The notes below the pieces were generated by a model, which did no database searches, had not been told where the DNA came from, and saw only the letters and a list, made by a program, of their open reading frames with translations. The translations under genes were made by a program, and so were the position numbers. 64,000 nucleotides of DNA from Streptomyces sp. NRRL F-5126 (lineage in GTDB: Bacteria; Actinomycetota; Actinomycetes; Streptomycetales; Streptomycetaceae): contig NZ_JOFZ01000002.1 in NCBI RefSeq assembly GCF_000721265.1, positions 372,001 through 436,000 on the forward strand, given 5' to 3'. Shown piece by piece: positions 40,255 to 56,240 of the stretch; within the stretch, counting starts at the first letter, position 1, and every line of letters begins with the position of its first letter.

Positions 40255-40614
40255 ATGACTGAGGAACTGCGGGTGGAGATCGTCGAGGAGCACGGCCGCC
40301 TCGCGGTGGCGGCGGTGGCCGGGGAACTCGACATCGCCACCGCCGGTGACCTGCACACACGCGTCAGCGCGGCGCTGGCCGCCCACCAGGACCTGATCCT
40401 CGACCTGGCGGAGGTGGGGTTCTGTGACTCCTCCGGCTTCAACGCGCTGCTGCGCGTGCGGCGGCGCGTGGGGGAGACGGGCGGGCGGCTGGCGCTCGCC
40501 GCGCCGCCGGTGCAGGTGGAACGCCTGCTCGCGCTCAGCGGCGGTGGCCACGAGCTGTTCGCCGTGCACGCGAGCCGAGCCGAGGCGCTCGCCGCCTACG
40601 ATGCCGGCTCCTGA
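40255..40614 (+). CDS. STAS-domain anti-sigma factor antagonist
   Basis: SpoIIAA/RsbV-like protein of 119 aa filling one STAS domain. Family members bind an anti-sigma kinase and free a sigma factor; phosphorylation on Ser inactivates them. The site reads FCDSSGFNALL with Ser59 in the phosphorylated position. Start ATG 40255 behind GAGGAG. Its 3' end overlaps the convergent RsbU-type phosphatase gene by 19 bp, and that enzyme class dephosphorylates exactly this protein class, so the two may act together. This partnership is inferred. Confidence 0.9.
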   Translation: MTEELRVEIVEEHGRLAVAAVAGELDIATAGDLHTRVSAALAAHQDLILDLAEVGFCDSSGFNALLRVRRRVGETGGRLALAAPPVQVERLLALSGGGHELFAVHASRAEALAAYDAGS

Positions 40615-41918
40615 GCGGCAGGCAGGCGCAGGGCCAGCAGCGCGATGTCGTCGTGGGAGTCGGCGGCCAGGCCCGTGAGCAGCTCGTCGCAGAGCACGTC
40701 CAGGTCGTGGTGGACGAGCGCGGCGGCGTGCTGGCGCAGCCGGGTCAGGCTCTGGTCCAGGGATTCGCCCCGGCGCTCGATCAGCCCGTCCGTGTACAGG
40801 AGCAGGGTGCCGCCAGGGGGCAGCGGCGTGTTGGCGCTCTGCCGCTCGACGTGCGGGTCGACGCCGAGGAGCATGCCGTGGGCGTCCTCCAGGTAGGAGG
40901 TGTCGCCGTCGGGCGTGATCAGGAGCGGCGGCGGGTGCCCCGCGCGCGCCCAGTCCAGCTCGTACGGGCCGCCCACCGGTCCCTTGAGCAGCCCGTAGAC
41001 GCACGTCGCCGTCTGGTTCGGGTAGAGGGCGCTGGCGGCGGTGTCCAGGCGGGCGAGGATCTTGCCCGGCGGCTCCTGCCGGTCGCACGCGATGCCGCGC
41101 AGCATGTTCCGCAGCTGGCTCATCGTCACGGCCGCCCGCAGGTCGTGGCCCGTCACGTCGCCGATGATCAGCGTGGTGTCCCCCTGCGGGAGGACGAAGC
41201 TGTCGTACCAGTCCCCGCCGACCTGCGCGGTGGCTGCGGCCGGTGCGTAGCGCGCCGCGATCCCGAGGCCGCCCACGACCGGCAGCACGGGCGGCAGCAG
41301 CGAGCGCTGCATGCGCGCGGCGATCGCCTGCGTCTCGGTGTGCAGCCGCGCGTTGTCCACGGCCAGAGCGATCCGGTGGGTCAGGTCGTCCACCAGCGCC
41401 AGGTCGCTCTCGGTGAGCGGTGGACGACCCGCGTCGCGGACCACGGTCAGCGCCCCGAGCACCCGTCGGCGGGCCCGCAGCGGCGCCACGATCAGCGTCT
41501 CGCCGCCCAGCCGTTCGAACAGGTCGATGTCGATCGCGTGCAGAGCGTCGGGAACCGTCTCGGGCGCGGGCATCCGATCGGCGGAAAGCAGCAGCGGGCC
41601 CGCGCCGCGCAGCACCCGCGACAGCGGCCCGGACGCGGTGCCTGCCGCCACCGGCAGCGCGCCCGTCAGGCCGGTCAGCACGGCGGCGGGGTCGTGGTGC
41701 GCCACGCAGACGCGGTCCAGCCGGCCCTCCTCGTCCATCAGGTCGGCGACACACCAGTCGGCCAGCGCCGGGACCAGCACCCGGCACAGGCGGCGCAGCC
41801 CCTCGACCGCGTCGAGGGTGCTGGAGAGCACCGCCGCCGCCTGGTTGAGCAGCGTCAGCCGGTCGAGCGCGGCCTGGAGGGCCGCGTCAACGTCGTATTC
41901 GTCTTCTCCGTCTTCCAT
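40596..41918 (-). CDS. GAF-PP2C serine phosphatase (RsbU/SpoIIE type)
   Basis: 440-aa cytosolic regulator. A GAF domain (residues 20-195) precedes a PPM/SpoIIE phosphatase domain. Metal-binding motifs are visible: AQVGGDWYDSF, LIIGDVTGHDLRAA, LYTDGLIERRG and the terminal DSHDDIALLAL. Such enzymes dephosphorylate STAS antagonists in partner-switching cascades; the convergent gene at 40255 encodes a candidate substrate. The ATG is 24 bp after the stop of a frameshifted GAF gene, indicating a former or present operon. Confidence 0.9.
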   Translation of the reverse strand: MEDGEDEYDVDAALQAALDRLTLLNQAAAVLSSTLDAVEGLRRLCRVLVPALADWCVADLMDEEGRLDRVCVAHHDPAAVLTGLTGALPVAAGTASGPLSRVLRGAGPLLLSADRMPAPETVPDALHAIDIDLFERLGGETLIVAPLRARRRVLGALTVVRDAGRPPLTESDLALVDDLTHRIALAVDNARLHTETQAIAARMQRSLLPPVLPVVGGLGIAARYAPAAATAQVGGDWYDSFVLPQGDTTLIIGDVTGHDLRAAVTMSQLRNMLRGIACDRQEPPGKILARLDTAASALYPNQTATCVYGLLKGPVGGPYELDWARAGHPPPLLITPDGDTSYLEDAHGMLLGVDPHVERQSANTPLPPGGTLLLYTDGLIERRGESLDQSLTRLRQHAAALVHHDLDVLCDELLTGLAADSHDDIALLALRLPAAQEPAS

Positions 41919-41942
41919 GACCGCCTCGCTTTCCCTGCCGGG

Positions 41943-42398
41943 TCAGACGTCGAGGGCGCCGGTCTCGCAGACCTGCCGGGCCAGGTCGCGCATCTTGGCG
42001 TAGCGCTCCATGATGATGCCCATCGCCGCGCCGATGGTGTGGCGGCCGGCCGTCTCGCTCTCTTCGGTGAAGGCAGCCGGCTTGCGCGAGTACATGTTCA
42101 GCGCGCCGAAGGCACGCTCCTGCGCGCAGGGGGGGAAGCCCCGTCATGCTGCCGATGCCCGGTTGCCGCGCGTCGGGGACGTAGCGGGGCCGCCGTGGCT
42201 GGTGGTCGTCGAGGTCGCAGATGCGGAGGACGCGCTCGTCCCCCATGTGCCGGACCGCGTCGAAACACGGGCCCTCGCCGTCGGCCTCCTGGAGTTCGTC
42301 CGACTGGACGACCGCCGCGTCGGTGGGCGCGAGCGTCTCGACGTGCTGCCCGTGGACCACCAGGATGCCGGCCGTGTCACGTAGTTCTGCCAGTCCAT
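41943..42398 (-). pseudogene. GAF-domain protein gene with two compensating frameshifts
   Basis: A good start (ATG 42398 behind GGAAGGAAC, giving MDWQNY) opens one frame. Within a few codons the recognisable GAF sequence is in another frame (AELRDTAGILVVHGQ, then DELQEADGEGPCFDAVRHMG). The tail GALNMYSRKPAAFTEES to ETGALDV is back in the first frame. The second shift maps to seven consecutive G (42129-42135). The net change is zero, so a full-length ~151-aa GAF protein like those paired with streptomycete RsbU enzymes is readable only with both corrections. It may be a pseudogene, a phase-variable gene or sequencing error. Confidence 0.75.
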
Positions 42399-42677
42399 GA
42401 CGTTCCTTCCGTCGCGGCGGCGCCGTACGGCGACACTGTGCGGCGTAGGCCGTGCGGGTGCCGTGTGCCCGCCGCTGCCCGGCCGCCGACCCGGACCCGC
42501 CGAGCCGGCGCCCGTCACCGTCGAGACCGGGCCCGCCAGGGACGTGGCGGCGACATCTTCGAGCGCCACCGCCCCCGCGTCCCGCGAAGGCCGCGCCGGT
42601 CGCCGCCCCGAAAACGAGAGGCGGCACGAGCCCAGCGGCAAAGCCGGCCCGGGATGCCGTGCCACGGGCCGCCCGGG
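42399..42677. other. Gene-free gap upstream of the GAF gene
   Basis: 279 bp of GC-rich sequence. Open frames exist on both strands but lack ribosome sites and any family resemblance. No hairpin or known operator stands out. Confidence 0.35.
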
Positions 42678-43142
42678 TCACGCGGCGCGCGCCGACGAGG
42701 CGACAGCTCCGTAGGTGGCCAGGCCGTACAGGATGTGCGGTACGACGTCGGACGCCCAGTCCCGTCCCGACCAGGTGCGCGGGTCGGTGATGCCGAGACG
42801 CGTCATCGGCAGGTCGTCGGCCACCATGGCCAGCAGCCCGGTGATCACGCCCCCGAGCACGAGGGGTGGCCGGAGCCCGGCCCGGTGGAGCAGCGACACG
42901 GCGACGCCGGTCCCCGTGCCGATGGCGATCCCCGAAAGGGCGCCGAGGCCCGTGAGCCGGTTGTCCCGGCCGTCCGTGTCCGGCAGGGGGTGCCCCGCAC
43001 GTTCGGTGATCCTCTCCACCGTGTCCTCGGGGGTGGAGCTCGCCGGCCTTCCGCGCACGGCCATGTCGGCGTAGGTCACGGCGTTCAGCACGGTCGTGCC
43101 CGCGGCCCCCGCGACGCAGCCACGCAGGATGGATCCGATCAT
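42678..43142 (-). CDS. Small conserved-looking membrane protein, function unknown
   Basis: About 154 aa with two to four hydrophobic segments: ILRGCVAGAAGTTVLNAVTY at the start, LGALSGIAIGTGTGVAVSLL and LVLGGVITGLLAMVA in the middle, and VPHILYGLATYGAVAS at the end. The segment between the first two is hydrophilic (RPASSTPEDTVERITERAG) and probably faces one side of the membrane. No family recognised. ATG 43142 is chosen; ATG 43160 adds six basic residues. Divergent from selA, so the 248-bp gap should hold both promoters. A link to selenium metabolism is not supported by anything seen. Confidence 0.65.
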   Translation of the reverse strand: MIGSILRGCVAGAAGTTVLNAVTYADMAVRGRPASSTPEDTVERITERAGHPLPDTDGRDNRLTGLGALSGIAIGTGTGVAVSLLHRAGLRPPLVLGGVITGLLAMVADDLPMTRLGITDPRTWSGRDWASDVVPHILYGLATYGAVASSARAA

Positions 43143-43390
43143 GCGCCGCCGGGTTCCCATGTCCCGGCGACCGAAACGGCCGCAGTCCGGCCGTGGCGGC
43201 GCCGGCGTGCGGGAGGGTTGGCGCCGCCGTCCCGGGGCAGTCGGTGCGCTGTCCGACGCGGCACCGCCCGCGGCGCCGACAGCGCGCCTAGTGTGTGGGG
43301 CGCGCAGGCGGCTTCCCGTCGGGGCGGACGTACACGGTCCCGCCCACTCGCACGGGTACGCGGAGCCGGTGGAGTCAGGGAGGGCATGTC

Positions 43391-44746
43391 ATGGAGCACC
43401 GTGCATCCGCGGTCGCCACGGATCCGCGGCGCCTGGTGGCACGCACCGACGCGGTACTCGCCGATCCACGGCTGGCCGGCGCCGCCCTGCGGCTCGGGCG
43501 GGACCTGGTGAAGTCCGTCGTCGCCGACGCCCAGCAGCGGGTGCGCAGCGGGGAGATCGCGCCAGGCGCGCTGGCCGACGCGGCCGTCGCCGCCCTGCCG
43601 GACACGGCCGCGCGGCTGCGTCCGGTCGTCAACGCCACCGGCGTGCTGCTGCACACCAACCTGGGACGCGCCCCCCTGTCCGGCGCCGCCATGGCGGCGC
43701 TGGCGGCTGCCTCGGGCACCACCGACGTCGAACTCGACCTGGCCACCGGGCAGCGGTCGGGGCGAGGCCGCTCGGCGCTCGCCGCCCTCACGGCGGCGGT
43801 ACCGGCAGCGGAGGCGGCGCACGTGGTGAACAACGGGGCCGCGGCGCTCGTGCTGGCCGCGACCTCTCTCGCCGCGGGCAAGGAGATCATCGTCAGCCGG
43901 GGGGAGATGGTCGAGATCGGCGACGGCTTCCGCATCCCCGACCTGCTGGTGTCCACGGGCGCCCGGCTTCGCGAGGTGGGCACCACCAACCGCACCACGC
44001 GCGCCGACTACGCGGCGGCCGTGGGTCCCGAGACCGGCTTCATCCTCAAGGTGCACCCGTCCAACTTCCGCATCACCGGCTTCACCAGGGGCGCCGACGT
44101 CGGCGAGCTTCGCGGGCTCGGAGTGCCCGTCGTCGCCGACATCGGATCCGGGCTGCTGCGGGCGGAACCGCTGCTGCCGGACGAACCGCACGCACAAGGC
44201 CGGCTGGAAGCGGGCGCCGACGTGGTCACCGCCAGTGGCGACAAGCTGCTCGGCGGACCCCAGTGCGGCCTCGTACTCGGCCGCACCGACCTGGTGCGTA
44301 CGCTCGCCCGCCACCCGCTGGCCCGTGCGCTGCGCGTCGACAAGCTGACGTTCGCCGCGCTCGAAGCCACCCTGCGCGGCCCGCACACCCCCACCCATCA
44401 GGCCCTGCACGCCGCCCCAGGCACCCTGCGGGAGCGTGCCGGACGACTGGCGGACGGGCTGAAGGCGGAGGGGATCGACGCGCGTGCGGTCGACTGCGAG
44501 GCCGCGGTCGGCGGTGGCGGCGCGCCGGGGGTCACCCTGCCGAGCGCGGCGGTGTCACTGCCGGAACCGTATGCGGCGGCGCTGCGCGGCGGCCGGTACG
44601 CCGTGCTGGGACGCGTGGAGAGCGGCCGGTGCCTGCTGGACCTGCGCACCGTCCCTCCGGAGGCCGACACGGCCCTGGCGGACGCCGTGAGGGCAGCCGG
44701 CACGGCCCTCACGTCCGCCGCGACCACCGGCACGCGGGCGCGGTGA
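43391..44746 (+). CDS. selA: L-seryl-tRNA(Sec) selenium transferase
   Basis: PLP enzyme converting seryl-tRNA(Sec) to selenocysteyl-tRNA(Sec) with selenophosphate; a decamer in characterised bacteria. 451 aa, normal length. The N-terminal tRNA-binding region (residues 1-75) is followed by NATGVLLHTNLGRAPL and the PLP fold. The Schiff-base lysine is Lys285 in TASGDKLLGGPQCG. REVGTTNRTTRADY is also typical of SelA. ATG 43391 follows GGGAGGG. Its stop overlaps an in-frame GTG before selB by 4 nt. With selB, tRNA-Sec and selD it forms a complete Sec insertion set. Confidence 0.95.
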   Translation: MEHRASAVATDPRRLVARTDAVLADPRLAGAALRLGRDLVKSVVADAQQRVRSGEIAPGALADAAVAALPDTAARLRPVVNATGVLLHTNLGRAPLSGAAMAALAAASGTTDVELDLATGQRSGRGRSALAALTAAVPAAEAAHVVNNGAAALVLAATSLAAGKEIIVSRGEMVEIGDGFRIPDLLVSTGARLREVGTTNRTTRADYAAAVGPETGFILKVHPSNFRITGFTRGADVGELRGLGVPVVADIGSGLLRAEPLLPDEPHAQGRLEAGADVVTASGDKLLGGPQCGLVLGRTDLVRTLARHPLARALRVDKLTFAALEATLRGPHTPTHQALHAAPGTLRERAGRLADGLKAEGIDARAVDCEAAVGGGGAPGVTLPSAAVSLPEPYAAALRGGRYAVLGRVESGRCLLDLRTVPPEADTALADAVRAAGTALTSAATTGTRAR

Positions 44747-44751
44747 ACCCC

Positions 44752-46563
44752 ATGTACGTCATCGCCACCGCCGGCCATGTGGACCACGGCAAGTCGGCGC
44801 TGGTGCGCGCGCTCACCGGGATGGAGCCCGACCGCTGGGCGGAGGAGCGCAGGCGGGGCATGACGATCGACCTGGGCTTCGCCTGGACGCGGTCGGCGGA
44901 CGGCGACCGCATCGCCTTCGTCGACGTGCCCGGCCACGAGCGTCTTGTCGGCAACATGCTGGCCGGGGTCGGCCCCGTACCGGCGGTGCTGCTGGTCGTC
45001 GCGGCCGACCAGGGGTGGCAGCCCCAGTCGGAGGAGCACCTGTCGGTCCTGCACGCGCTGGGCGTGCGCCACGGCGTACTCGCCGTCTCGCGCAGCGACC
45101 TCGCGGACCCTGCGGCGGTGCGGGGCGACGCGCTGGCCCGCATCGCCGCCACCTCGCTCGGCGACGTCGAGGCGGTCCCGGTGAGCGCCGTTACGGGCCG
45201 AGGCATGGCGGAACTGCGGTCGGCGCTCGACCGGCTGACGGCATCGCTGCCCGCGCCCGACACCGAAGCCGACGTCCGCTTCTGGATCGACCGCGCCTTC
45301 ACCGTCCGCGGCCGGGGCACCGTCGTCACCGGCACGCTCGGGGCCGGGACCCTGCGCGTCGGGGACCGCCTGAGCGTCGCGGGCGCAGGCGGCCACCAGG
45401 TACGGGTGCGCGGCATGCAATCGCTGAAGGAGGACAGGACCGAGGCGGGCGCCGTCGCCCGGGTCGCCGTCAACCTGCACGGGGACACCGGCGGCCTCGG
45501 CCGTGGCAGCGCCCTGCTCACCCCGGAGCGCTGGCTCACCACTGACGTGGCCGACGTGCGCCTGCACGGCGATCCGGAGGCCGAGCTGCCCCGCCGCCTC
45601 ACGTTCCACTTCGGCTCGGCCGCCGTCGAGGCAGGCGTGCGCCCGATCGGCGACGACACGGCACGGCTTTCGCTCGCCGCCGAACTGCCGCTGCGGATCG
45701 GCGACCGGGGCCTGCTGCGCGACCCGGGGCTGCGGCGGGTCGCCGCCGGCATCACCGTCCTCGACGTGAGACCGCCCCGGTTCACGCGGCGCGGGGCGGC
45801 CAGGGCCAGAGCCACCGAGCTGGCCGCGATGACGGGAACGCCCGACCCCGCGGACGAGCTGCGCCGCCGGGGCCTGCTCCGGCGCGGCGAACTGGCCGCC
45901 ATGGGCGCGCCGGTGACCGCACGAACGATGGCCGCCGAGCCGGTGGCCGGGGACTGGCTCGCCGACCCCGGGCACTGGGCGCGGCTGCGGCGGCGGCTCG
46001 CGGCGGCCGTACAGGACCACGCACGGCGAAACCCCCTCGAACCGGGGATGCCCGCGGAGGCCGCGAGGCGCGCACTCGGCCTGCCGGACCGGCTGCTCGT
46101 CGACGCGCTGGTCGCCGCCCGTGCTGAACCCGCCCTGCGGCGCCGCGGCGGACGCCTCCACATCGGCGCGGCACGCGCCGAGCTGCCCGAGGCCGTGCGG
46201 CGGGCCGTGGACGCCGTGCACGCCGAACTGGCCGAGCGGCCCTACCGGTCGCCCGAGGCCAAACGCCTCGCCGAACTGGGCCTGACGCAGAAGGCGATGG
46301 CCGCAGCGGCCGCCGCCGGCGTCCTGCTGAAGGTCGCCGACGGCATCGTGCTGCTGCCCGGCGCCGACGCGCGCGCGGCGCGCCTGCTCGCCGGGCTGGA
46401 ACAGCCCTTCACGCTCAGTCAGGCGCGCATCGCCCTCGACACGACACGCAGGGTGGCCGTCCCGCTGCTCGAACACCTCGACAGGAAAGGGCACACCGTC
46501 CGCGTCGACGAGACCCGCAGGCGCTGCGCCGGGACGGGGGCCGACGGGCAGGAACCGCGGTGA
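44752..46563 (+). CDS. selB: Selenocysteine-specific elongation factor SelB
   Basis: GTPase that delivers Sec-tRNA(Sec) to ribosomes at a UGA followed by a SECIS. About 603 aa. The EF-Tu-like domain has G1 GHVDHGKS, switch II VDVPGHE and a G4 position reading VSRSDL. It then has beta-barrels II-III (VRGRGTVVTGTLGAG). The C-terminal third (residues 340-600) carries winged-helix repeats that bind the SECIS in known SelB. ATG 44752 gives the usual N-terminus MYVIATAGHV; GTG 44743, overlapping the selA stop as GTGA, is an alternative three codons earlier. Operon with selA. Confidence 0.95.
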   Translation: MYVIATAGHVDHGKSALVRALTGMEPDRWAEERRRGMTIDLGFAWTRSADGDRIAFVDVPGHERLVGNMLAGVGPVPAVLLVVAADQGWQPQSEEHLSVLHALGVRHGVLAVSRSDLADPAAVRGDALARIAATSLGDVEAVPVSAVTGRGMAELRSALDRLTASLPAPDTEADVRFWIDRAFTVRGRGTVVTGTLGAGTLRVGDRLSVAGAGGHQVRVRGMQSLKEDRTEAGAVARVAVNLHGDTGGLGRGSALLTPERWLTTDVADVRLHGDPEAELPRRLTFHFGSAAVEAGVRPIGDDTARLSLAAELPLRIGDRGLLRDPGLRRVAAGITVLDVRPPRFTRRGAARARATELAAMTGTPDPADELRRRGLLRRGELAAMGAPVTARTMAAEPVAGDWLADPGHWARLRRRLAAAVQDHARRNPLEPGMPAEAARRALGLPDRLLVDALVAARAEPALRRRGGRLHIGAARAELPEAVRRAVDAVHAELAERPYRSPEAKRLAELGLTQKAMAAAAAAGVLLKVADGIVLLPGADARAARLLAGLEQPFTLSQARIALDTTRRVAVPLLEHLDRKGHTVRVDETRRRCAGTGADGQEPR

Positions 46564-46614
46564 GAGGGCGCGCGAAGGCCTTCCCTCCCGCTGGAACCGC
46601 CGCGGAAGCTTCAG

Positions 46615-46707
46615 CGGAGACGGACGGGAATCGAACCCGCCTGCCCGAGATCCTCGGACACCTCGGTTTTGAAGACCGGGAGGGCCACCAGGCACCCCTA
46701 CGCCTCC
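46615..46707 (-). tRNA. selC: tRNA-Sec (anticodon UCA)
   Basis: Read on the minus strand, 46707 to 46615 folds as a ~93-nt tRNA. Acceptor ends are GGAGGCG and CGTCTCC plus discriminator G (one G-U pair). The anticodon loop is CTTCAAA with anticodon TCA. A long variable arm has an 8-bp stem TGTCCGAG/CTCGGGCA (one wobble) and GAT loop. The T arm is GCGGG-TTCGATT-CCCGT. CCA is not encoded. UCA anticodon, long variable arm and position between selB and selD identify it as tRNA-Sec. It is antisense to the selB-selD transcript direction and must have its own promoter to the right. Confidence 0.93.
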
Positions 46708-46831
46708 CCGCCCCCGCCCGCCGAATCACCCGGCGGGTGCGGACCGGTCCATCAAACCGCAGCAGGACACCGATGTCGACGTACGCCCGGCGGTGTGTTC
46801 AGTCAGCCGCCCGCGACATGTGAGGAGCGCC

Positions 46832-47884
46832 ATGGACACCGTCGAGCAGGCAGGGCAGGCAGCACCGGGGGCCGGGCCGGGGGCCGCGGCGGGCCCCGTC
46901 CGCCTGACGCAGTACGCGCACGGCGGCGGCTGCGCCTGCAAGATCCCGCCGGGCGAGCTTGAGGACATGGTCGCCGGACTCGTCGGCGCGCCCGCGACCG
47001 GGGCGGCCGCGGAACTCCTCGTCGGCCTCGAAAGCGGCGACGACGCCGCCGCCGTGCGGCTGCGTGGCGGCACCGCCGTCCTCGCCACCGCGGACTTCTT
47101 CACACCCGTCGTGGACGATCCCTACGACTGGGGCAGGATCGCCGCCGCCAACGCCTTCTCCGACGTCTACGCCATGGGCGGGCAGCCGGTGGTGACGGTG
47201 AACCTGCTCGCCTGGCCGCGCGACGTACTGCCGTTCGACCTGGCAAGGGAGTTGCTGCGCGGCGGGCTCGACATCGCCGCCGAGGCCGGCTGCCACGTGG
47301 GGGGCGGCCACAGCGTCGACGACCCCGAACCGAAGTACGGCATGGCCGTCACCGGCATCGCGGACCCCGGGCGGCTGCTGCGCAACGACCGCGGACGCCC
47401 GGGCCTGCCGCTCTCCTTGACCAAGCCGCTCGGCCTCGGCGTGCTGAACAACCGTCACAAGGCCACGGGCGAGGTCTTCCCCGAGGCGGTCGCCACCATG
47501 GTGGCGCTCAACGGGGACGCGTCGGCCGCCGCGCTGCGCACGGGCGCCGTGTGCGCCACGGACGTGACGGGGTTCGGGCTGCTGGGGCACGCCTACAAGC
47601 TGGCGCGCGCCTCGGGCGTCACAGCGGTGATCGACGCGTCGGCCGTGCCGTACCTCGACGGCGCGCGGGAAGCGGTGCGGGGCGGCTTCGTCAGCGGCGG
47701 CACCCGGCGCAACCTGGCCTGGGTCGCGCCGCACACCGACTTCGGGCAGGCGGACGAGGAGACGCGGCTGCTGCTCGCCGACGCGCAGACATCCGGCGGC
47801 CTGCTCGTGGCGGGCGAGGTGCCGGGGGCGCCCGTCATCGGCGAGCTGGTGCCCGCGTCGGGCGCCCCGCTGGTGATCCGCTGA
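46832..47884 (+). CDS. selD: Selenide, water dikinase (selenophosphate synthetase)
   Basis: Makes selenophosphate from selenide and ATP for SelA. 350 aa, usual length. The catalytic segment reads HGGGCACKIPPGEL: Cys34 and Lys37 match Cys17 and Lys20 of E. coli, so this SelD is a cysteine form, not itself a selenoprotein. Other signatures: GDDAAAVRL, TADFFTPVVDDPYDWG, NAFSDVYAMGG and GGHSVDDPEPKYGMAVTG. ATG 46832 follows GAGGAG. Transcribed in the direction of selAB but separated from selB by 268 bp containing the antisense tRNA-Sec, so probably its own unit. It converges on the fdh operon with a 5-bp gap. Confidence 0.95.
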   Translation: MDTVEQAGQAAPGAGPGAAAGPVRLTQYAHGGGCACKIPPGELEDMVAGLVGAPATGAAAELLVGLESGDDAAAVRLRGGTAVLATADFFTPVVDDPYDWGRIAAANAFSDVYAMGGQPVVTVNLLAWPRDVLPFDLARELLRGGLDIAAEAGCHVGGGHSVDDPEPKYGMAVTGIADPGRLLRNDRGRPGLPLSLTKPLGLGVLNNRHKATGEVFPEAVATMVALNGDASAAALRTGAVCATDVTGFGLLGHAYKLARASGVTAVIDASAVPYLDGAREAVRGGFVSGGTRRNLAWVAPHTDFGQADEETRLLLADAQTSGGLLVAGEVPGAPVIGELVPASGAPLVIR

Positions 47885-47889
47885 GCAAG

Positions 47890-50800
47890 CTACTGCGTGC
47901 CCGTCTCCTCCGTGATCCCGGCCCGCCTGCGGTAGCCCCGGACGAACTCTGCCGCCGCCGCGCCCTGCGGCCGCCTGCCGGGGCGAATGTCGCAGGTCAG
48001 GGCCTTCGACTCCTGGATGTGTGTGTTGGGGTCGAGCGACATGTGCGTCAGCTCGTTGGCGGCGTCGCCCTTCGTGTAGCCGTTGGGCCCCCAGTGGTAC
48101 GGCAGGCCCACCTGGTGCATGGTGCGGCCCTGCACCACGAGCGGCGCCATCCGGTCGGTGACCAGGACCCGCGCCTCCACGACACCCCGGGCGGTGACCA
48201 CGGTCGCCCATCCCGCGTGCTCGAGCCCGCGCTCCGCGGCGAGCTCGGGGGAGACCTCGCAGAAGAACTCGGGCTGGAGCTCGGCCAGGTAGGGCTGCCA
48301 GCGTGACATGCCGCCCGCCGTGTGGTGCTCGGTGAGCCGGTACGTCGTCATCACGTACGGGAACACCTCGGAGCCCGGCTCGTTGGCGCTCGGCTGGTAG
48401 CGGTTGTCCGGGTGCGAGAGCAACTGGCGTGCCGGGTTGCGCTGCTGCCCGTACAGCAGGTTCGGGAACGGCGAGTCCTGCGGCTCGTAGTGCGCGGGCA
48501 GCGGCCCGTCGGTCAGGCCGGCCGGCACGTAGAGCCACGCCTTCCCGTCCGCCTGCATGACGAACGCGTCGGTGCCGGACAGTGCCGCGGGTCCCGTCGC
48601 CCCCTCGGGCGGCCGGTGGTCGGGCGCCTTGCCCGCGGAGAAGTCGGGCACGTCGTGCCCCACCCACTGCTCCTGCTCCGCGTCCCACCACACCAGGGCC
48701 TTGCGCTCGCTCCACGGCTTGCCGTCCGGGTCGGCGGACGCGCGGTTGTACAGGATGCGCCGGTTGGCCGGCCACGCCCAGCCCCACTCGTTCGCCACCC
48801 AGTTCTGCTCGTTGCCCGGCCTGCGCCGGGACGCCTGGTTGACGCCGTCCGCGTACACCCCGCAGTAGATCCAGCAGCCGCAGGCCGTCGAGCCGTCGCC
48901 CTCCAGCTGCTCGTACGACGACAGCGGGTTCCCCTCGGCGTCGTAGCCGTTGATCTCGGCCAGCACGGCCTCGGCCTCGGGCTCGTCGATCTCGCCCCTC
49001 GTCGGGTAGTCCCACGTCACGTCGAGCAGCGGGCGGTCCATCCCGTCGGTGGAACCCGCGAGCTTCTCTCTGATCAGGCGGCCGAGGTGGTACGTGAACC
49101 ACAGGTCGCTGCGGGCGTCACCGGGCGGTTCGACGGCCTGGTGGTGCCACTGCAGCATGCGCTGGGTGTTGGTGAACGAGCCGTCCTTCTCGGTGTGGGC
49201 GGCGGCGGGCATGAAGAACACCTCGGTGGCGATGTCCTCCGTCCGCATCTCGCCCGTCCCGATCTCCGGCCCGTCCTTCCACCAGGTGGCGGATTCGATG
49301 AGCGAGAAGTCGCGCACCACCAGCCAGTCCAGGTTCGCCATGCCCAGACGCTGCATCTTGGCGTTGGACGAGCCGACCGCCGGGTTCTGCCCGACGAGGA
49401 AGTACCCCTTGCAGGTGCCCTCGATCTGCGCCATGACGGTCTCGTACGTGCTGTGCGAGCCCGTCAGCCGCGGCAGGTAGTCGAAGCAGAAGTCGTTGTC
49501 CTCCGTCGCCGCCGCGCCGTAGTAGGCCTTGAGCAGGCTCACCGCGTACGCCCGCATGTTGCCCCAGTAGCCCTTCTCCGCGGCCTCCGCCCGCACGAAG
49601 GCGTCCAGGTCCTGCTGCCGGTGGGCGTGCGGCATCGGGATGTAGCCGGGCAGCAGGTTGAACAGGGTGGGGATGTCGGTGGAGCCCTGGATGGAGGCGT
49701 GCCCGCGCAGGGCGAGGATGCCGCCGCCCGGCCGGCCGATGTTGCCCAGCAGGGACTGCAGGATGGCCGCCGTCCGGATGTACTGGACGCCGACCGTGTG
49801 CTGCGTCCAGCCCACCGCGTAGGCGAACGCCGTCGTGCGGTCGCGCCCGGAGTTGCTCGTCACCAGCTCGCACACCTGGCGGAACTGCTCCTCGGGCACG
49901 CCGCAGACCTGCCGCACCATCTCCGGCGTGTACCGCGCGAAGTGGCGCTTGAGCACCTGGAACACGCACCGGGGGTGGGTGAGCGTCTCGTCGCGCTCCG
50001 GCTCGCCCTCGCCGATCGGCGCACCGCCGGATCCGGTGGCCTCCCCGAGGCCCGCCTCGGCCACGGAGCTGCCCGACCTCGTGCGCCGCTCGTACTCCTG
50101 GTCCCGCTGGCCGGAGGCCGCCTGCACCTCCACGCCCTCGTAATGCCACGTGCCGTTGTCGTACGAGCCGCTGTCCGGGTCGAAACCGGAGAAGAGGCCG
50201 TCCAGGTCCTCCGTGTCCTTGAAGTCCTCGCCCAGGATCGTCGGCGCGTTGGTGTACGCGACGACGTAGTCGCGGAAGTACTTGTCCCGCTCCAGCACGT
50301 AGTTGATGATCGCGCCGAGGAACGCGATGTCACTTCCCGCGCGCAGCGGCACGTGCACGTCGGCCAGGGCGCTCGTACGCGTGAAGCGCGGGTCGACGTG
50401 GATGACCTTGGCGCCGCGCGCCTTGGCCTCCATCACCCACTGGAACCCGACCGGATGGCACTCCGCCATGTTCGAGCCCTGGATGACGATGCAGTCGGAG
50501 TTCTGCAGGTCCTGCTGGAAGGTGGTCGCGCCGCCGCGGCCGAACGAGGTCCCCAGACTGGGGACGGTGGAGGAGTGTCAAACACGCGCCTGGTTCTCGA
50601 TCTGCACCGCGCCCATCGCCGTGAACAACTTCTTGATGAGGTAGTTCTCCTCGTTGTCCAGCGTGGCGCCGCCCAGGCTCGCGATGCCCAGCGTCCGCCG
50701 GGTGCGCACCCCGTCGGCCTCCCACTGCCAGCCCTCCCGCCGCGCCTTGACGACGCGGTCGGCGATCATCTCCATCGCCGTGTCCAGGTGCAGGCTCTCC

Positions 50801-51144
50801 CACTCGGTCCCGTACGGCCTGCGGTAGAGCACCCGGTGCTCGCGGGCGGAACCGGTCGTCAGCTGCAGGCTGGCCGAGCCCTTGGGGCACAGCCGGCCGC
50901 GTGAGACCGGCGAGTCGGGATCGCCCTCGATCTGCGTGACCTTGCCGCCTTGCACGTAGACGTTCTGGCCGCAGCCCACGGCGCAGTAGGGACAGATCGA
51001 CTTGACGACCTTGTCGGCCGTCGCCACGCGGGGCTTCAGGGTGTCGCTGCGCCTGCTCTTGGCCGCCGCGCCGCGCCCCAGCGGGTCGTCGCCGCTCAGC
51101 TGCCGGTAAGTGGGCCACGAGTCGATCCAGGTGCGGATTCCCAT
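47890..51144 (-). CDS. fdh: Selenocysteine-containing formate dehydrogenase, catalytic subunit (UGA read through)
   Basis: Molybdopterin bis-MGD formate dehydrogenase of the FdnG/FdoG type, about 1084 aa if UGA 50578-50580 is read as Sec189; E. coli FdnG has Sec at 196. Before the UGA: a 4Fe-4S site (Cys51, 54, 58 in CPYCAVGC, fourth Cys in GRLCPKG) and VQIENQARV. After it: HSSTVPSLGTSFGRGGATT, then IQGSNMAECHPVGF and the molybdopterin domains. Both halves are in one frame and the residues flanking the UGA match the family exactly. ATG 51144 follows GAGGAG. No Tat signal is seen, so it should face the cytoplasm. Last gene of its operon. Confidence 0.95.
50549..50580 (-). promoter_or_regulatory. 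UGA selenocysteine codon with SECIS stem-loop
   Basis: On the minus strand the UGA (50580-50578) is followed by 12 nt and then a 17-nt hairpin: GUCCCC, loop AGUCU, GGGGAC (50565-50549). In E. coli fdhF the minimal SelB-binding hairpin is also 17 nt, starts 11 nt after the UGA and has loop AGGUCU. The match in spacing, size and GUCU loop supports a functional SECIS; SelB binding is inferred. Confidence 0.85.
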
Positions 51145-51145
51145 G

Positions 51146-51406
51146 TCACTGCTCCTCGTTCTGCCTGCGCGCTGCCGCGCGGCGCATGGGCTTGTCGTCG
51201 GCGGCCCGTTGCTTGAGCCACCGCGCGACCACCGCCGCCGTCGGTGAAGCGGGGTTCCCGGCCGGCCTGGGACTGCCGCCGCCGTCGGCGGGCAGCCCGG
51301 TGGCGATCATGTACGCCTGCCCTGCGGGCACCCCGAGACGGCGGGCGGCCTCCTCGTAGCCGAGCCGGGAGTCCAGCAGTCGCATGACCTGTTCGCGCGT
51401 GGGCAT
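51146..51406 (-). CDS. Small fdh-operon protein, function unknown
   Basis: 86-aa basic protein encoded between the membrane subunit and the catalytic subunit, with one-base gaps on both sides (TGAGATG, TGACATG). ATG 51406 has GGGAGG eight bases upstream. Residues 4-40 form two or three helices resembling a helix-turn-helix (VMRLLDSRLGYEEAARRLGV, then AGQAYMIATGLPAD). The middle is Pro/Gly-rich and the C-terminus is basic (KPMRRAAARRQNEEQ). Tight coupling argues for a role in expression, assembly or cofactor insertion of the enzyme, but no family function is known to me. A DNA- or RNA-binding role is possible. Confidence 0.8.
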   Translation of the reverse strand: MPTREQVMRLLDSRLGYEEAARRLGVPAGQAYMIATGLPADGGGSPRPAGNPASPTAAVVARWLKQRAADDKPMRRAAARRQNEEQ

Positions 51407-51407
51407 C

Positions 51408-52451
51408 TCAGGCGCCTCCCGCCCGCTCGGCCCGCTGCCTTTCGGCCTCGTCAAGGCGCTCGCGCTGCGGCACCACCACGTACTTGGGGTCCTCCGTGGA
51501 AGCGACCCCCGCGTGGAAGACGCCGAAGCGCAGCGCGGCCGAGCCGCAGAGCAGCGCCGTGCCCGCGGCCGCCGCGGCGACGCGGCTGCGGCGTCCGGCC
51601 GTCAGCGCCAGCACGGCCCCGGCGCCGCTCAGCGCCTCCGAAGCGTGCATCAGCCGGCCGGCCTTGCCCTGCTCGAAGGTCTCGGAGGCGATCCCCATCC
51701 GCTGCTTCATCACCTGAATCGCGGCCAGTTCGAGGGCCGTGCCGAAGGCGGCCATGCGCCGTGCGGGGCCCGCCTCGCCGACCCGCGCGGCCAGCATGCC
51801 GAGGCCGCCGGCGGCGCTCGCGCCCGAGCCGACGAAGGCGAACGGCAGTTCGCGGTAGCCCTCGTGCCACGACGGCGCGGCCGTGTCCGCCAGCAGCACC
51901 GCGGTGTACGCGGCCACCGCGGGGCCGAGCGCCGCCGCGCCCGCCGTCGCCGCGGTGCCCACGGGCCGCAGCCTGCCCGTCAGGTCGGAGGCGGTGGCGG
52001 CGGCGGCCAGCGGCGCATAGCCGCTGAGCAGCCAGGAACCCACGCTCATCGGGGACGTCGGCTTGAACACCCTGAGCATGTTGAGGAAGCGGGCAGGCCG
52101 CCCCAGGTCGTGGACGAGCGCCGCGAGCGACAGGGAGATCGCCCCGAAGGCACCGGCCTTGGCGGCGCGAGCGAGCCCCGGCCGCCCGGTGGCCTGGGCG
52201 CCGGCCGCCAGCGCCGACGAACCGCCCGCCAGGCCGCCGAGGAACAGGTAGCCGGCGATGTCCATCGGCTTCCAGGTGGGCTTGTTGAGCACGGGCTTGC
52301 CGTAGTACGAGGAGAACTTCGCCTTCGGCACCATGGGTTCCTCGCCGCCGCGCCTGCGGCGCCTGTGCCGCCCGGCGGCCTTGCCCGTCAGCGCCTCCCT
52401 GCCCGGGCTCGCGCCCTTCACGCCCTCGCGCGTCACGTCCGAGCGGCTCAT
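51408..52451 (-). CDS. nrfD: NrfD/PsrC-type membrane subunit of formate dehydrogenase
   Basis: Integral membrane quinone-interacting subunit, about 347 aa. A basic N-terminus (residues 1-45) precedes AKFSSYYGKPVLNKPTWKPM and about eight TM helices. The NrfD hallmark DLGRPARFLNMLRVFKPTSP follows TM3, and SPMSVGSWLL lies before TM4. No heme-binding cytochrome subunit is encoded, so electrons from formate should pass through the Fe-S subunit to menaquinone via this protein. ATG 52451 overlaps the Fe-S subunit stop as ATGA and follows GGAGGT. Confidence 0.9.
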   Translation of the reverse strand: MSRSDVTREGVKGASPGREALTGKAAGRHRRRRRGGEEPMVPKAKFSSYYGKPVLNKPTWKPMDIAGYLFLGGLAGGSSALAAGAQATGRPGLARAAKAGAFGAISLSLAALVHDLGRPARFLNMLRVFKPTSPMSVGSWLLSGYAPLAAAATASDLTGRLRPVGTAATAGAAALGPAVAAYTAVLLADTAAPSWHEGYRELPFAFVGSGASAAGGLGMLAARVGEAGPARRMAAFGTALELAAIQVMKQRMGIASETFEQGKAGRLMHASEALSGAGAVLALTAGRRSRVAAAAAGTALLCGSAALRFGVFHAGVASTEDPKYVVVPQRERLDEAERQRAERAGGA

Positions 52452-53488
52452 CGGGACCTCCGGAGGAAGCAGGCGGCCGCGCCCGCGGCCAGGGTCAGGG
52501 CCGCGGCGCCCGCACAGCGCCACATCCGAGGCAGGTCACGCGTCGTCACGACGGGGTCGGGCGGCAGGCCGTACACCTCGGGCCGGTCGAGCAGGAGGAA
52601 GAAGGCGCCGTCACCGCCGACGCCGTCGCCCGGGTCCTCGCCGTACAGCCGAGCGTCGGCGACGCCCGCGTCGTGCAACCGGCCGACGCGGGCGGCGGCG
52701 CGCTCGCGCAAGTCGTCGAGGGGCCCGAACTGGATGGAGTCCGTGGGGCACGCCTTCGCGCAGGCGGGCTCCATGCCGACGCCCAGGCGGTCGTAGCACA
52801 GCGTGCACTTCCACACGCGGCCGTCGTCCTTGCGCTGGTCGATGACGCCGTAGGGGCAGGCGGGCACGCAGTAGCCGCAGCCGTTGCAGATGTCCTCCTG
52901 CACCACGACCGTGCCGAACTCCGTGCGGAACAGGGATCCGGTCGGGCAGACGTCGAGGCAGGCCGCGTGGGTGCAGTGCTTGCACACGTCCGAAGACATC
53001 AGCCAGCGCAGCTCGGTCCGCCCGTCGGGGGCGATCGGCGAGATCTCGCCGGCCGGCGCGGCCGAGGTCGCCGCGTCCGGCGGCGGGGTGGTCGCCCCGG
53101 GTCCTGGGGAGGCCGGGGAGACGCCGAGGCTGCCGGCCGCCGCGAAGATGTCGACGTCGCTGTGGTCGACGCCGGGCTCCTGGCCGCCGAGCGCCTTGCG
53201 CTGCTCGATGAACGCGACGTGGCGCCAGGTGTCGGCGCCCAGCCCCTGGGTGTTGTCGTAGGACATGCCGGTCAGTTCCAGGCCGTCCTCGGGAACGGCG
53301 TTCCACTCCTTGCACGCGACCTCGCACGCCTTGCAGCCGATGCACACCGAGGTGTCGGTGAAGAACCCCATGCGCGGCGCGTGGTCCGTGTATCCGGCGG
53401 CACCGCTGACGTCCGGCTGCGGCCCGTACAGGGTGGCACCGCCCGACCCGAGGACGACCGGCACGCCGCTCGAACCCGTCTCAGCCAT
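52448..53488 (-). CDS. Formate dehydrogenase iron-sulfur (beta) subunit
   Basis: Electron-transfer subunit, about 346 aa, with four 4Fe-4S motifs: CIGCKACEVACKEWN (residues 47-61), CKHCTHAACLDVCP, CNGCGYCVPACPYG and CTLCYDRLG with a late CAKACP. An Ala/Pro/Gly-rich insert sits between the first and second clusters. The last ~25 residues (MWRCAGAAALTLAAGAAACF) form a membrane anchor, as in FdnH. ATG 53488 follows GGAGGG and is the first gene of the operon. The reading frame stays open upstream through a frameshifted membrane-protein remnant, which an automated caller could wrongly fuse to it. Confidence 0.92.
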   Translation of the reverse strand: MAETGSSGVPVVLGSGGATLYGPQPDVSGAAGYTDHAPRMGFFTDTSVCIGCKACEVACKEWNAVPEDGLELTGMSYDNTQGLGADTWRHVAFIEQRKALGGQEPGVDHSDVDIFAAAGSLGVSPASPGPGATTPPPDAATSAAPAGEISPIAPDGRTELRWLMSSDVCKHCTHAACLDVCPTGSLFRTEFGTVVVQEDICNGCGYCVPACPYGVIDQRKDDGRVWKCTLCYDRLGVGMEPACAKACPTDSIQFGPLDDLRERAAARVGRLHDAGVADARLYGEDPGDGVGGDGAFFLLLDRPEVYGLPPDPVVTTRDLPRMWRCAGAAALTLAAGAAACFLRRSR

Positions 53489-53895
53489 CGTGACACCCTC
53501 CGTCGGCAACAAAGGCGGGGGCGCGGCCCCGGCACGTCGCTCCATGGGTAACCCCTGAGCGCGGTCGCAAACCAGACGTCCTCCCCACGCCAGGAGCGCG
53601 GCACCCGCGCCGAGCAGCGTCGGCAGGAGGAGGGTGACGCCGACGCTCAGGGCCTGCGCGCCGGCCTGCGTCCACGTGCCGTGCCGGGTGACGGCCACCG
53701 GGGGATGGCTCCACGGGCCGAGGACGGCCAGGCACGCGAGGCCGCAGGTGGCCGCCGGCGGCGAACGCGGCGGCGGCCGGCACGAGCACCCGCAGCGCGG
53801 TCCTCAAGGTCGCGCGGCGGTCGGCGGGGAGCCCGTGGGCCCGCTCGGCGGACTGCCACGCCTGTGCCGGGGCGGATCGACGCGGAAACGTTCAT
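53489..53895 (-). pseudogene. Frameshifted small membrane-protein gene
   Basis: ATG 53895 overlaps the stop of the glycosyltransferase gene as ATGA and starts MNVSASIRPG. Plausible coding sequence then continues in the second frame (AERAHGLPADRRATLRTALR, VLVPAAAAFAAGG; about 53860-53760). It then moves to the third frame (ATCGLACLAVLGPWSHPP, QALSVGVTLLLPTLLGAGAA; about 53765-53560). Together these give a two-TM protein of about 110 aa. No single frame spans it. Either a decayed gene or two sequencing errors; no family recognised. Confidence 0.5.
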
Positions 53896-54998
53896 GCGGG
53901 GCTCCGTTCGTCCCGCGGTGATGCGCCGTGCCGGGCGGCCAGTTCCTCCAGCGGGGCCACCGGGTCGGCGTCGAACAGCGACCGGCCGGCCGCCGTGCGC
54001 CGCGCACGCAGGGGCCCCGGCGCCGTGAGGGCGTCGAGCGAGCGGACCAGCGCCCACGAGTCACGCGCGTAGTCGGTGAACCCCTCCTGCGCCATGCGTC
54101 TGACACCCTCGCGCCCGTGCCCGGGGATGGGCCGGTAGCCGATGACCGGCACGCCCGCCGCGAGTGCCTCGAGCGCCGTCTGCCCCGCCGCGTTGTCCAC
54201 GAGCGCGTGCGCACCGGCCAGTAGGCCCGGCATGTCGTCCGTCCAGCCGACGGCGCGTGCGCCCGGCACGCGCTCGACCTCACGGCGCAGCTCCTCGTTC
54301 CTGCCGCACAGGACGACCGGCTCGTACCCGGCGCCCGCCACCCACCGTGCGGTCCGCGCGATGTGCGTGCCGACGCCCCAGGCGCCCGCCGCGATGAGCA
54401 CGCGGTGGCGGCCGTCCGCCGCGGTGGCCCACGGGTGCGCCGCCGGGCGCAGGAAGCGGCGGGCGACGAGCGGCCCCGACACGGCCGCGGGACGCCCGAC
54501 GGCCCGCCGCACCTCGTCGGCGATGCCGGGGGTCAGGCACAGATGCAGGTCGTTGCCCGGGTGGAGCCACTGCCGGTGCGCGGCGAAATCCGTGATGACG
54601 ACGGCGCTGCCGGCGCCCAGCCGGCCGCGGGCCCGGAGCCCGCCCGTCAGCTGGGCCGCCAGGTGGAAGACGGGCACGACGACGTCGAAAGCGCCCTGCC
54701 CGACGATGTCGAGCAGGGGCGCGTCGGCCAGGGTGGCGAGCGGGCTGCTGCCCGGTCTCGGCCCTTCCCCCGACCGGAAGAACGTCGCGTAGATGCCCGC
54801 GTATACGGCCGGAGCATGGTGGATGACCGTGCGGTAGAACGTGCGTACGGCGCCGCCGACCCCCGCGGGGAGCAGGTCGAGGACATCGACGCGCACGCAT
54901 CCGTGCCCCCGCGCGCGCAGCCGTCCGGACAGTTCCGCGGCCACCGCGTCGTGCCCCGAGCCCATGCTCGCGCTCAGCACCAGGAAGCGTCGCCCCAT
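53892..54998 (-). CDS. UgtP/MurG-like glycosyltransferase (GT28)
   Basis: GT-B glycosyltransferase of about 368 aa similar to processive diacylglycerol glucosyltransferases and plant MGDG synthases. The N-terminus is FLVLSASMGSGHDAVAAEL, the glycine-rich loop of that group. It then has VFHLAAQLTGGL, DLHLCLTPGIADEVRRAVG, and the donor site LLAGAHALVDNAAGQTALEA with PVIGYRPIPGHGREG. These enzymes add sugars to diacylglycerol or a related lipid at the inner membrane face. ATG 54998 follows GGAGGGAGAGGG. It overlaps a frameshifted membrane-protein gene by 4 nt. Confidence 0.82.
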   Translation of the reverse strand: MGRRFLVLSASMGSGHDAVAAELSGRLRARGHGCVRVDVLDLLPAGVGGAVRTFYRTVIHHAPAVYAGIYATFFRSGEGPRPGSSPLATLADAPLLDIVGQGAFDVVVPVFHLAAQLTGGLRARGRLGAGSAVVITDFAAHRQWLHPGNDLHLCLTPGIADEVRRAVGRPAAVSGPLVARRFLRPAAHPWATAADGRHRVLIAAGAWGVGTHIARTARWVAGAGYEPVVLCGRNEELRREVERVPGARAVGWTDDMPGLLAGAHALVDNAAGQTALEALAAGVPVIGYRPIPGHGREGVRRMAQEGFTDYARDSWALVRSLDALTAPGPLRARRTAAGRSLFDADPVAPLEELAARHGASPRDERSPA

Positions 54999-55153
54999 CC
55001 GCCCTCTCCCTCCGTCCTTCCCCCTCGCCTTCGGCCAGTCGGCCGTCGCGGGCTGCTTCGTACGCGGTATTGCCGTCCGATCCCCATTGGCCCGCCCGGG
55101 GTACGGGGGAGTCTTCGCGTGGAGCACTGTCTCCGTATCCGAGGAGGAACGGC

Positions 55154-55285
55154 ATGGTCACCCCCGGCCTCGATGTCCTGCCGGTGTATCCGCGCCGGCG
55201 GCGCTTCAAACCGATCGTCCCGCGTCACGCCCGCGGTCGCCGCCCGTGGGCGGATGCGTCCTCCCGGCGGGTTTGCGACCGGTGA
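55154..55285 (+). CDS. Possible 43-aa basic protein
   Basis: A near-ideal ribosome site GAGGAGGAAC lies 4 bases before ATG 55154, and most codons end in G or C, as in real genes here. The product is strongly basic (RRRRFKPIVPRHARGRR). No homologue recognised. It sits in the gap between the divergent glycosyltransferase and SDR genes and could be a short gene, a leader peptide or a gene remnant. Confidence 0.35.
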   Translation: MVTPGLDVLPVYPRRRRFKPIVPRHARGRRPWADASSRRVCDR

Positions 55286-55411
55286 AAACGGTCAACTCGA
55301 CGTCGTCCGCGGATCGAGTGGCCACAGCGCGACGGCCGGGCGGTCCCGTCGTGTCCCCGGCGTGCGGTGGCTGAGCGCCGCGGCCGGGCCAACCCGTCTG
55401 AGGAGGGCGTC

Positions 55412-56221
55412 GTGACGCGAGCTCTGCCCGGTCCCGACTACCGGGATGCCGCTCCGACCGCTGCCGGCCGCCGCACGTCGACGGGGGTGGCCCTGGTGAC
55501 CGGTGCCTCCTCCGGCATCGGGGCCGCCGTCTCACGGCGCATGGCGGCGGGCGGCTGGGACCTGCTGGTCACCGGCCGCGACGCCGAGCGCCTGCACGAG
55601 GTCGCCGCCGCCACATCCGGGGTCGCGCTGCCCGCCGATCTGTCCTCTCCCGACGGCGCACGCGCGCTGGTGTCGAGCGCGTTCGCCACCACCGACCGGA
55701 TCGACCTGCTCGTGGCCGGGGCCGGCGTCGGCTGGGCCGGACCCTTCGCGGCCATGCCGGCCGCCGCCGTCGACCGGGTGGTCTCCGTCGACCTCACGTG
55801 CGTACTGCACCTGGTGCGGCTCGTCCTGCCGCACATGCTCGCGGAGAAGCGCGGCCACATCGTGCTCGTCGGGTCCGTCGCGGGCACGCTCGGGGTGCGG
55901 GAGGAAGCCGTCTACTCCGCGGCCAAGGCCGCGATCTGCGTCTTCGCCGACGCCCTGAGGTACGAGCTGCGGGGTACGGGCGTACGGGTGACGCACGTCG
56001 TGCCCGGCGTGGTCGACACCCGGTTCTTCGAGCGGCGCGGCCGCCCGTACACGCGCGCACGCCCGCGCCCCGTGCCGGCCGAACAGGTGGCCGACGCGGT
56101 CTGGGACGCGCTGGTGCACGGACGGGACGAGGTGTACGTACCCGCCTGGCTCCAGTGGCCGCGCAGGGTCCGAGGCGTCGCCCCGACCGTCTACCGGCGG
56201 CTCGCCGCCCGGTTCGGATGA
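55412..56221 (+). CDS. Short-chain dehydrogenase/reductase
   Basis: Classical SDR, 269 aa, NAD(P)-dependent. Cofactor motif TGASSGIG at residues 30-37, LVAGAGVG (NNAG equivalent) near 105, catalytic Ser in VLVGSVAG and the YSAAK motif near residue 180. Start GTG 55412 behind GAGGAGGG. The first gene of a rightward run with a DMT-family protein and a polysaccharide deacetylase (19-bp gap, then a 4-nt overlap). Substrate unknown. Confidence 0.88.
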
Positions 56222-56240
56222 GGATGGGGACGACCGGAAG

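Follow-up and report, generated by a model that had tools for sequence, protein, structure and literature searches.

A predicted compact selenocysteine cassette with a formate dehydrogenase client in Streptomyces sp. NRRL F-5126, and a candidate membrane selenoprotein family in its relatives

Can a streptomycete carry the complete apparatus for selenocysteine (Sec), together with a protein that uses it, in one short block, and does such a block travel as a unit? The question is raised by positions 43391-53488 of a 64,000-nt stretch of the genome of Streptomyces sp. NRRL F-5126 (the whole stretch is called the window below), in which the initial annotation had described a self-contained island of selA-selB, tRNA-Sec, selD and a Sec formate dehydrogenase (FDH). 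Here, we describe this block as what is very probably a functional, compact selenocysteine cassette of a known kind with one dedicated client, judging from its genes and their conservation, and we report a survey of relatives in which the Sec machinery appears to be a module with an exchangeable client. The cassette runs in the order selA, selB, tRNA-Sec, selD, then fdhA, a small open reading frame (ORF), an NrfD-type gene and a 4Fe-4S gene, with the following features (window coordinates):

43391-44746, plus strand: selA, L-seryl-tRNA(Sec) selenium transferase, 451 amino acids (aa); TIGR00474 414.7 bits (cut-off 267.9), PF03841 E 1.6e-96
44752-46563, plus strand: selB, Sec-specific elongation factor, 603 aa, with C-terminal winged helix; TIGR00475 273.5 bits (cut-off 242.25)
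46616-46707, minus strand: selC, tRNA-Sec; Rfam RF01852 73 bits (gathering score 47), anticodon TCA by ARAGORN
46832-47884, plus strand: selD, selenophosphate synthetase, 350 aa; TIGR00476 372.5 bits (cut-off 125)
47890-51144, minus strand: fdhA, formate dehydrogenase alpha subunit, 1084 aa, predicted Sec at residue 189; NF041513 2052.5 bits (cut-off 1400)
50549-50565, minus strand: hairpin resembling a selenocysteine insertion sequence (SECIS), GUCCCC-AGUCU-GGGGAC, 12 nt after the UGA
50578-50580, minus strand: predicted Sec codon (UGA) of fdhA, context ARV-U-HSSTVPSL, the sole in-frame TGA in fdhA
51146-51406, minus strand: small conserved ORF of the fdh operon, 86 aa, weakly helix-turn-helix-like; PF13384 16.5 bits, below the cut-off of 24.6
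51408-52451, minus strand: fdhC, NrfD-type membrane subunit, 347 aa; PF03916 48.6 bits (cut-off 25.8), also PF14589
52448-53488, minus strand: fdhB, 4Fe-4S electron-transfer subunit, 346 aa; PF13247 82.4 bits, TIGR01582 (FDH-beta) 181.2 bits, below its cut-off of 334.7

All frames are open, and SelA, SelB, SelD and FdhA each score above their curated NCBIfam cut-offs, FdhA against an existing NCBI model for the actinobacterial Sec formate dehydrogenase (NF041513, 'formate_DH_Act'). SelB also matches SelB-wing_3 at 53.9 bits and finds its best solved-structure match in SelB 5lzb, and SelD is of the Cys type, its translation having Cys rather than Sec in the N-terminal motif (GGGCACK). The tRNA-Sec gene lies on the strand opposite to selA, selB and selD, and the fdh operon converges on selD with 5 bp between the two stops (47884 and 47890), as the initial annotation had it; its gene assignments are likewise borne out, by the family scores, by RF01852 and by alignment of the fdhA UGA with FdnG. 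Three genomic features of bacterial selABCD Sec decoding are present: SelA, SelB and SelD above cut-offs, a tRNA-Sec with UCA anticodon, and a SECIS hairpin 3' of the client's UGA. The genome was searched for another tRNA-Sec and another FdhA, as part of a check proposed in the initial annotation: no further tRNA-Sec reaches the cut-off (the five weaker matches are tRNAs for Ser, Gly, Trp, Met and Leu), and no further FdhA is found at E<=1e-200. FdhD, which is required for FDH maturation, is encoded elsewhere in the genome.

In alignment, the UGA of fdhA falls on the Sec of E. coli FdnG (1kqf), and the codons that follow it are unusually constrained. Across 28 Sec-FdhA genes, the window's included, fourfold sites in the 14 codons that follow the UGA have a mean third-base identity of 0.93, compared with 0.651 gene-wide; the higher value is reached in 11 of 982 codon windows, the six best of which start at residues 188-203 (Sec = 189). 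In 18 Cys homologues, the corresponding stretch gives 0.571 against 0.579 and is reached by 482/911 windows, so it is unremarkable. A or T stands at third positions at a frequency of 0.239 around the UGA versus 0.045 in the gene. A consensus hairpin, GUUCCC-RGUCU-GGGAAC, pairs in 66/66 cells when 14 genes (11 distinct rows) are aligned; a double change, U-A to C-G, occurs in the window row alone, giving GUCCCC...GGGGAC with the pairing intact. What is directly supported is the gene set, the placing of the UGA at the catalytic Sec position and the constraint on the hairpin, and on this comparative evidence the UGA is predicted to be read as Sec.

By analogy with known enzymes, SelD would supply selenophosphate, SelA would turn Ser-tRNA-Sec into Sec-tRNA-Sec, and SelB would deliver the latter at the UGA of fdhA, with the hairpin that lies 12 nt downstream as its guide. 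FdhA, with Sec and molybdopterin, would then oxidize formate and pass electrons to the 4Fe-4S subunit, on to the NrfD-type membrane subunit and into the quinone pool, amounting to respiratory use of formate.

Several points weigh against this reading. The covariation is a single double change, which 49/500 shuffles reach; the window hairpin folds no more stably than shuffled sequence (157/200 fold as well), which is expected because the sequence is GC-rich, yet lends no support; and one relative, G102, in an assembly of 1420 contigs, has a TGA-containing FdhA and no tRNA-Sec match. Finally, no cytochrome b appears among the family matches listed, the membrane subunit being of the NrfD type (PF03916, PF14589) in place of the FdnGHI cytochrome b, and inspection of FdhA by eye showed no twin-arginine signal; both points bear on the membrane topology and the electron acceptor.

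The window cassette belongs to a published kind of cluster, since the same type is in print for Streptomyces incarnatus, Corynebacterium aurimucosum and Actinomycetospora. In S. incarnatus NRRL8089, selA, selB, selC and selD are clustered near the alpha gene of a Sec-FDH (FDH-O), in which the UGA is followed by a SECIS; the likeness to the window is one of gene content, as the published account gives no gene order (PMC4498112, 2015). In another genus, C. aurimucosum has fdnG/fdxH with selDAB/selC, following the same cluster logic, in an order that its authors call highly conserved (PMC2830990, 2010). Actinomycetospora chiangmaiensis FDH1 likewise places a Sec FdhA1, FdhB1, FdhC1, SelA and SelB under one cluster, but this species has three Sec-FDHs and its FDH1 cluster is listed without selD (PMC7176365). 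Arthrobacter sp. YA7-1 carries selB-selA, tRNA-Sec and selD, followed by nrfD, 4Fe-4S and fdh genes that run towards selD, as in the window, although its cassette is borne on a plasmid (pYA7-1a) and its fdh subunit order is reversed. E. coli FDH-N (FdnGHI, 1kqf) has a homologous alpha subunit with Sec at the same place, but its gamma subunit is a cytochrome b, unlike the NrfD-type subunit of the window.

How widely is the trait distributed? A survey of 295 Streptomyces genomes, the window genome included, found tRNA-Sec (E<=1e-9) in only 52. Presence of the block in all streptomycetes, which the initial annotation had held to be at odds with an island, is thus not seen, and its description of the trait as patchy holds for the genus. 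FdhA (E<=1e-200) was found in 77/295 genomes, 39 with one in-frame TGA and 41 with a stop-free match, 3 having both; there are 40 TGA-FdhA copies in the 39 genomes, G176 holding two. Of the 41 stop-free matches, 18 were read, and all 18 have Cys (TGC/TGT) at the Sec site (L199-L216); the stretches fetched around these 18 genes hold no match to SelA, SelB or SelD. Three stop-free matches (G146, G180 and G045) do not span the Sec site. Among the 52 tRNA-Sec genomes, 38 have a TGA-FdhA, the FdhA match of G146 lies entirely past the site, and in 13 no FdhA reaches the threshold. A draw of genomes from the class gave tRNA-Sec (E<=1e-10) in 83/316 genomes and 45/120 genera.

These 13 genomes pose the question of what else Sec is used for. 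Eleven encode a membrane protein about 254 aa long, whose reading frame is interrupted by a TGA in the motif SGSVUTRNS (family form SGS[VT]-U-[TS]xNS), and G172 has this protein in addition to FdhA, bringing the family to 12 Streptomyces genomes. The gene lies within the fetched sel locus in 9/12 genomes; it is about 390 kb from tRNA-Sec in G172 and on another contig in G050 and G271. Copies are found in the following loci of relatives:

L069:15107-15871, UGA membrane protein gene
L077:14196-14960, UGA membrane protein gene
L119-L198, UGA membrane protein genes
L309-L321, UGA membrane protein genes

The TGA stands at one site, with homologous sequence on either side, and goes together with the tRNA in every set examined. 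All 12 copies in the genus carry the TGA and all 12 genomes are tRNA-Sec positive (hypergeometric p 2.9e-10). Public genomes yielded 127 confirmed loci, the best 80 of which, from nine named genera, all have TGA at the site (80/80), with tRNA-Sec above cut-off in 50/50 genomes searched among those of these 80 loci. In the class draw, 13/13 copies in 10 genomes have the UGA and 10/10 genomes are tRNA-Sec positive, versus 83/316 overall (p 1.0e-6). The genus, public and class sets overlap, and at least two of the ten class genomes are apparently also in the 50-genome set, having identical tRNA-Sec coordinates. Beyond Streptomyces, the family occurs in Actinomadura, Micromonospora, Stackebrandtia and others. 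Third-base identity after the UGA is again raised, at 0.769 versus 0.620 (8/204 windows) and 0.757 versus 0.564 (9/174), and a hairpin after the UGA appears in the best fold of some, not all, of 12 membrane-gene sequences.

No Cys homologue at the Sec site was found in the genus, public or class searches, and the family would therefore escape the usual searches that pair Cys with UGA. Database homologues, among the 120 of 795 matches listed, are 152-191 aa long versus 254; the three that were read all start behind the UGA, and most of the named ones are called 'hypothetical'. The UGA membrane protein has no match in NCBIfam, and the family is unmatched, by name and motif, in the accessible portion of a 119-family catalogue of 2026 (PMC13188914); nor was it found in the openly readable literature, supplementary tables aside, including the accessible parts of PMC12013277, PMC5322559 and PMC1794560. 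Upstream of the gene, in 71 loci, lie a 236-aa protein (67), a MauE-like protein (34), a weakly MauD-like protein (31) and a protein rich in Cys that is apparently exported (39). With one copy excepted, they share the strand of the membrane gene; the counts come from a simple frame caller and are probably low. We infer that the membrane protein may serve the Cys-rich protein as a redox partner in forming its disulfides.

A second branch, with the motif VFSP-U-G[QE]SM, accounts for the twelfth of the 13 genomes with no FdhA at the threshold (G276), whose distant homologue has TGA at the aligned site, and also occurs on a plasmid of S. anthocyanicus:

L076:10924-11571, second-branch gene of G276
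L305:10378-11025, second-branch gene of S. anthocyanicus plasmid NZ_CP109276.1

Both adjoin selD, selA, selB, tRNA-Sec and a MauE-like gene, and their products are 26% and 27% identical to the L069 protein (UGA read as Cys; BLASTP E 6e-10 and 4e-11). Four database homologues of this branch were read, of which three begin right after the UGA and one further in. Only G215 (L075), out of the 52 tRNA-Sec Streptomyces, is left with no client found; by eye, three other genes stand between its selA and selD, including acyl-CoA-dehydrogenase-like and PhnD-like ones. In the window genome, where these families were the only selenoprotein families searched besides FdhA, both UGA membrane families are absent. 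It is thus probable that the streptomycete Sec machinery is a module with an exchangeable client, either formate dehydrogenase or a so far uncatalogued, Sec-only membrane selenoprotein.

Do sel and fdh nevertheless move together, as the initial annotation had suggested? Forty fetched loci were compared for gene order, and the converging arrangement of selA-selB, selD and fdhA seen in the window recurs in 18/40, these 18 being loci that had been chosen for their Sec-FdhA. The two parts are, however, not one rigid unit, because they lie apart in several genomes and their trees conflict for some. fdhA is 46 kb from tRNA-Sec in G092, 72 kb in G101 and 95 kb for the second copy of G176, and on a different contig in G043, G169 and G279; in G033 they are also on separate contigs, both at contig ends, and may be neighbours. 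When trees of SelABD, FdhA and rpoB (the sole stand-in for a species tree) are compared, G214 pairs with G043 as its sister in SelABD (support 1.0), but the two fall far apart in FdhA.

The possibility that the cassette is ancestral in actinomycetes, passed down vertically in the chromosome arms and repeatedly lost, with its compactness reflecting old operon organization, is a serious one, although we do not favour it. Groups close in rpoB (G106/G148, G144/G234, G111/G020/G016, G153/G172 and G176/G206/G151) remain near one another in SelABD and, for the most part, in FdhA, and this agreement argues for descent. The breadth of tRNA-Sec across the class is in keeping with it, as is the ordinary setting of the window copy: neighbours scanned with Pfam (a subset of the window's genes) that include neither integrase nor transposase, no exact direct repeat of at least 18 nt in 41900-56300, where repeats are imperfect only (13 families), and cassette G+C content within the window range. 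Set against this, the near-twins in rpoB G026 and G260 hold different SelABD and FdhA types, the window's own rpoB neighbours, G065 and G274, differ in their clients, and sel-fdh clusters with tRNA-Sec sit on plasmids of Arthrobacter and Tsukamurella.

The flanks of the window copy also fit poorly with simple descent. Genes traced in relatives were, one per line:

40596-41918: SpoIIE-like gene
53892-57254: MGDG/SDR/EamA-like block

Across the 40 loci, the flank genes for the most part lie away from sel, and they are scattered in relatives, with two exceptions: G026 has the MGDG, SDR and EamA-like block near sel in reversed order, and G192 has a 45% homologue of the left-hand 160-aa gene beside sel. 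SpoIIE-like, SDR and EamA-like matches of 28-39% in other loci were taken as paralogues. None of 10 stretches fetched from relatives contains a clean empty site with both flanks joined, because the flanks are not syntenic in the relatives examined.

A strict mobile island, in which the entire block would move as a single element with boundaries of its own, is unlikely. In its favour are the patchy distribution of tRNA-Sec and the cassette of pYA7-1a (L306, typed as conjugative), which lies complete with tRNA-Sec between a Tn3 transposase and an integrase; another sel-fdh cassette with tRNA-Sec is on Tsukamurella plasmid 17 (L307). A complete cassette on a conjugative plasmid means that such cassettes can move, and a 2016 survey lists Sec-trait transfers among Actinobacteria, most of them with fdhA nearby (PMC5029168). 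This reading is opposed by the separation of sel and fdhA in several genomes, the G214/G043 conflict, the lack of a clean empty site, and the absence of a mobility gene among the scanned neighbours and of an exact flanking repeat. The cassette is mobile as a kind, and the neighbours, repeats and G+C content of the window copy do not demonstrate mobility for that copy. The reading of the initial annotation, a unit that may move whole, is supported in part. We consider that the history of the cassette probably combines partly vertical descent with partly loss, exchange and reassembly among actinomycetes.

Two further alternatives concern the activity of the window copy itself. A decaying or silent cassette could account for the long branch of the window in the SelABD tree, at an unsupported position (0.329), but is very improbable, given that all frames are open, that SelA, SelB, SelD and FdhA score above cut-offs and that a paired change has preserved the hairpin. 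In vitro, metal-dependent Sec-FDHs work in both directions, and the enzyme might be run in reverse as a CO2 reductase; this is likewise very improbable, as the NrfD/quinone wiring would be expected to favour oxidation. It is also opposed by selenium-dependent formate removal in Actinomycetospora, an actinobacterium with similar Sec-FDH clusters, which accumulated formate (molar ratio about 0.6) when no selenite was added and almost none when it was (PMC7176365); this result also speaks for the main reading.

The 86-aa ORF between fdhA and the NrfD gene, not listed in the initial annotation, is a possible regulator. It has 23 matches, itself included, and its homologues adjoin fdhA in three relatives (L088, L089 and L092). 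By eye, the homologue in L088 runs on into a hemerythrin-like stretch, and L088, L091 and L095 have a cytochrome-oxidase-I-like frame on the opposite strand between fdhC and fdhA.

The window thus adds one more intact Sec-FDH cassette, ordinary in kind, with its SECIS kept by a paired change, and the survey shows a patchy distribution of the trait across Streptomyces and different combinations of sel with fdhA. For the specialist, the candidate membrane selenoprotein of the relatives is the surprising part. The 2016 survey found a few Sec-utilizing genomes with no known selenoprotein, blamed these mostly on incomplete genomes and left new selenoproteins possible (PMC5029168). The predicted Sec-only membrane protein offers an answer to what most sel-positive streptomycetes without Sec-FDH make with Sec; if this is true, the family could account for Sec-decoding genomes that seemingly lack a selenoprotein, and it makes the existence of such new selenoproteins testable in soil bacteria.

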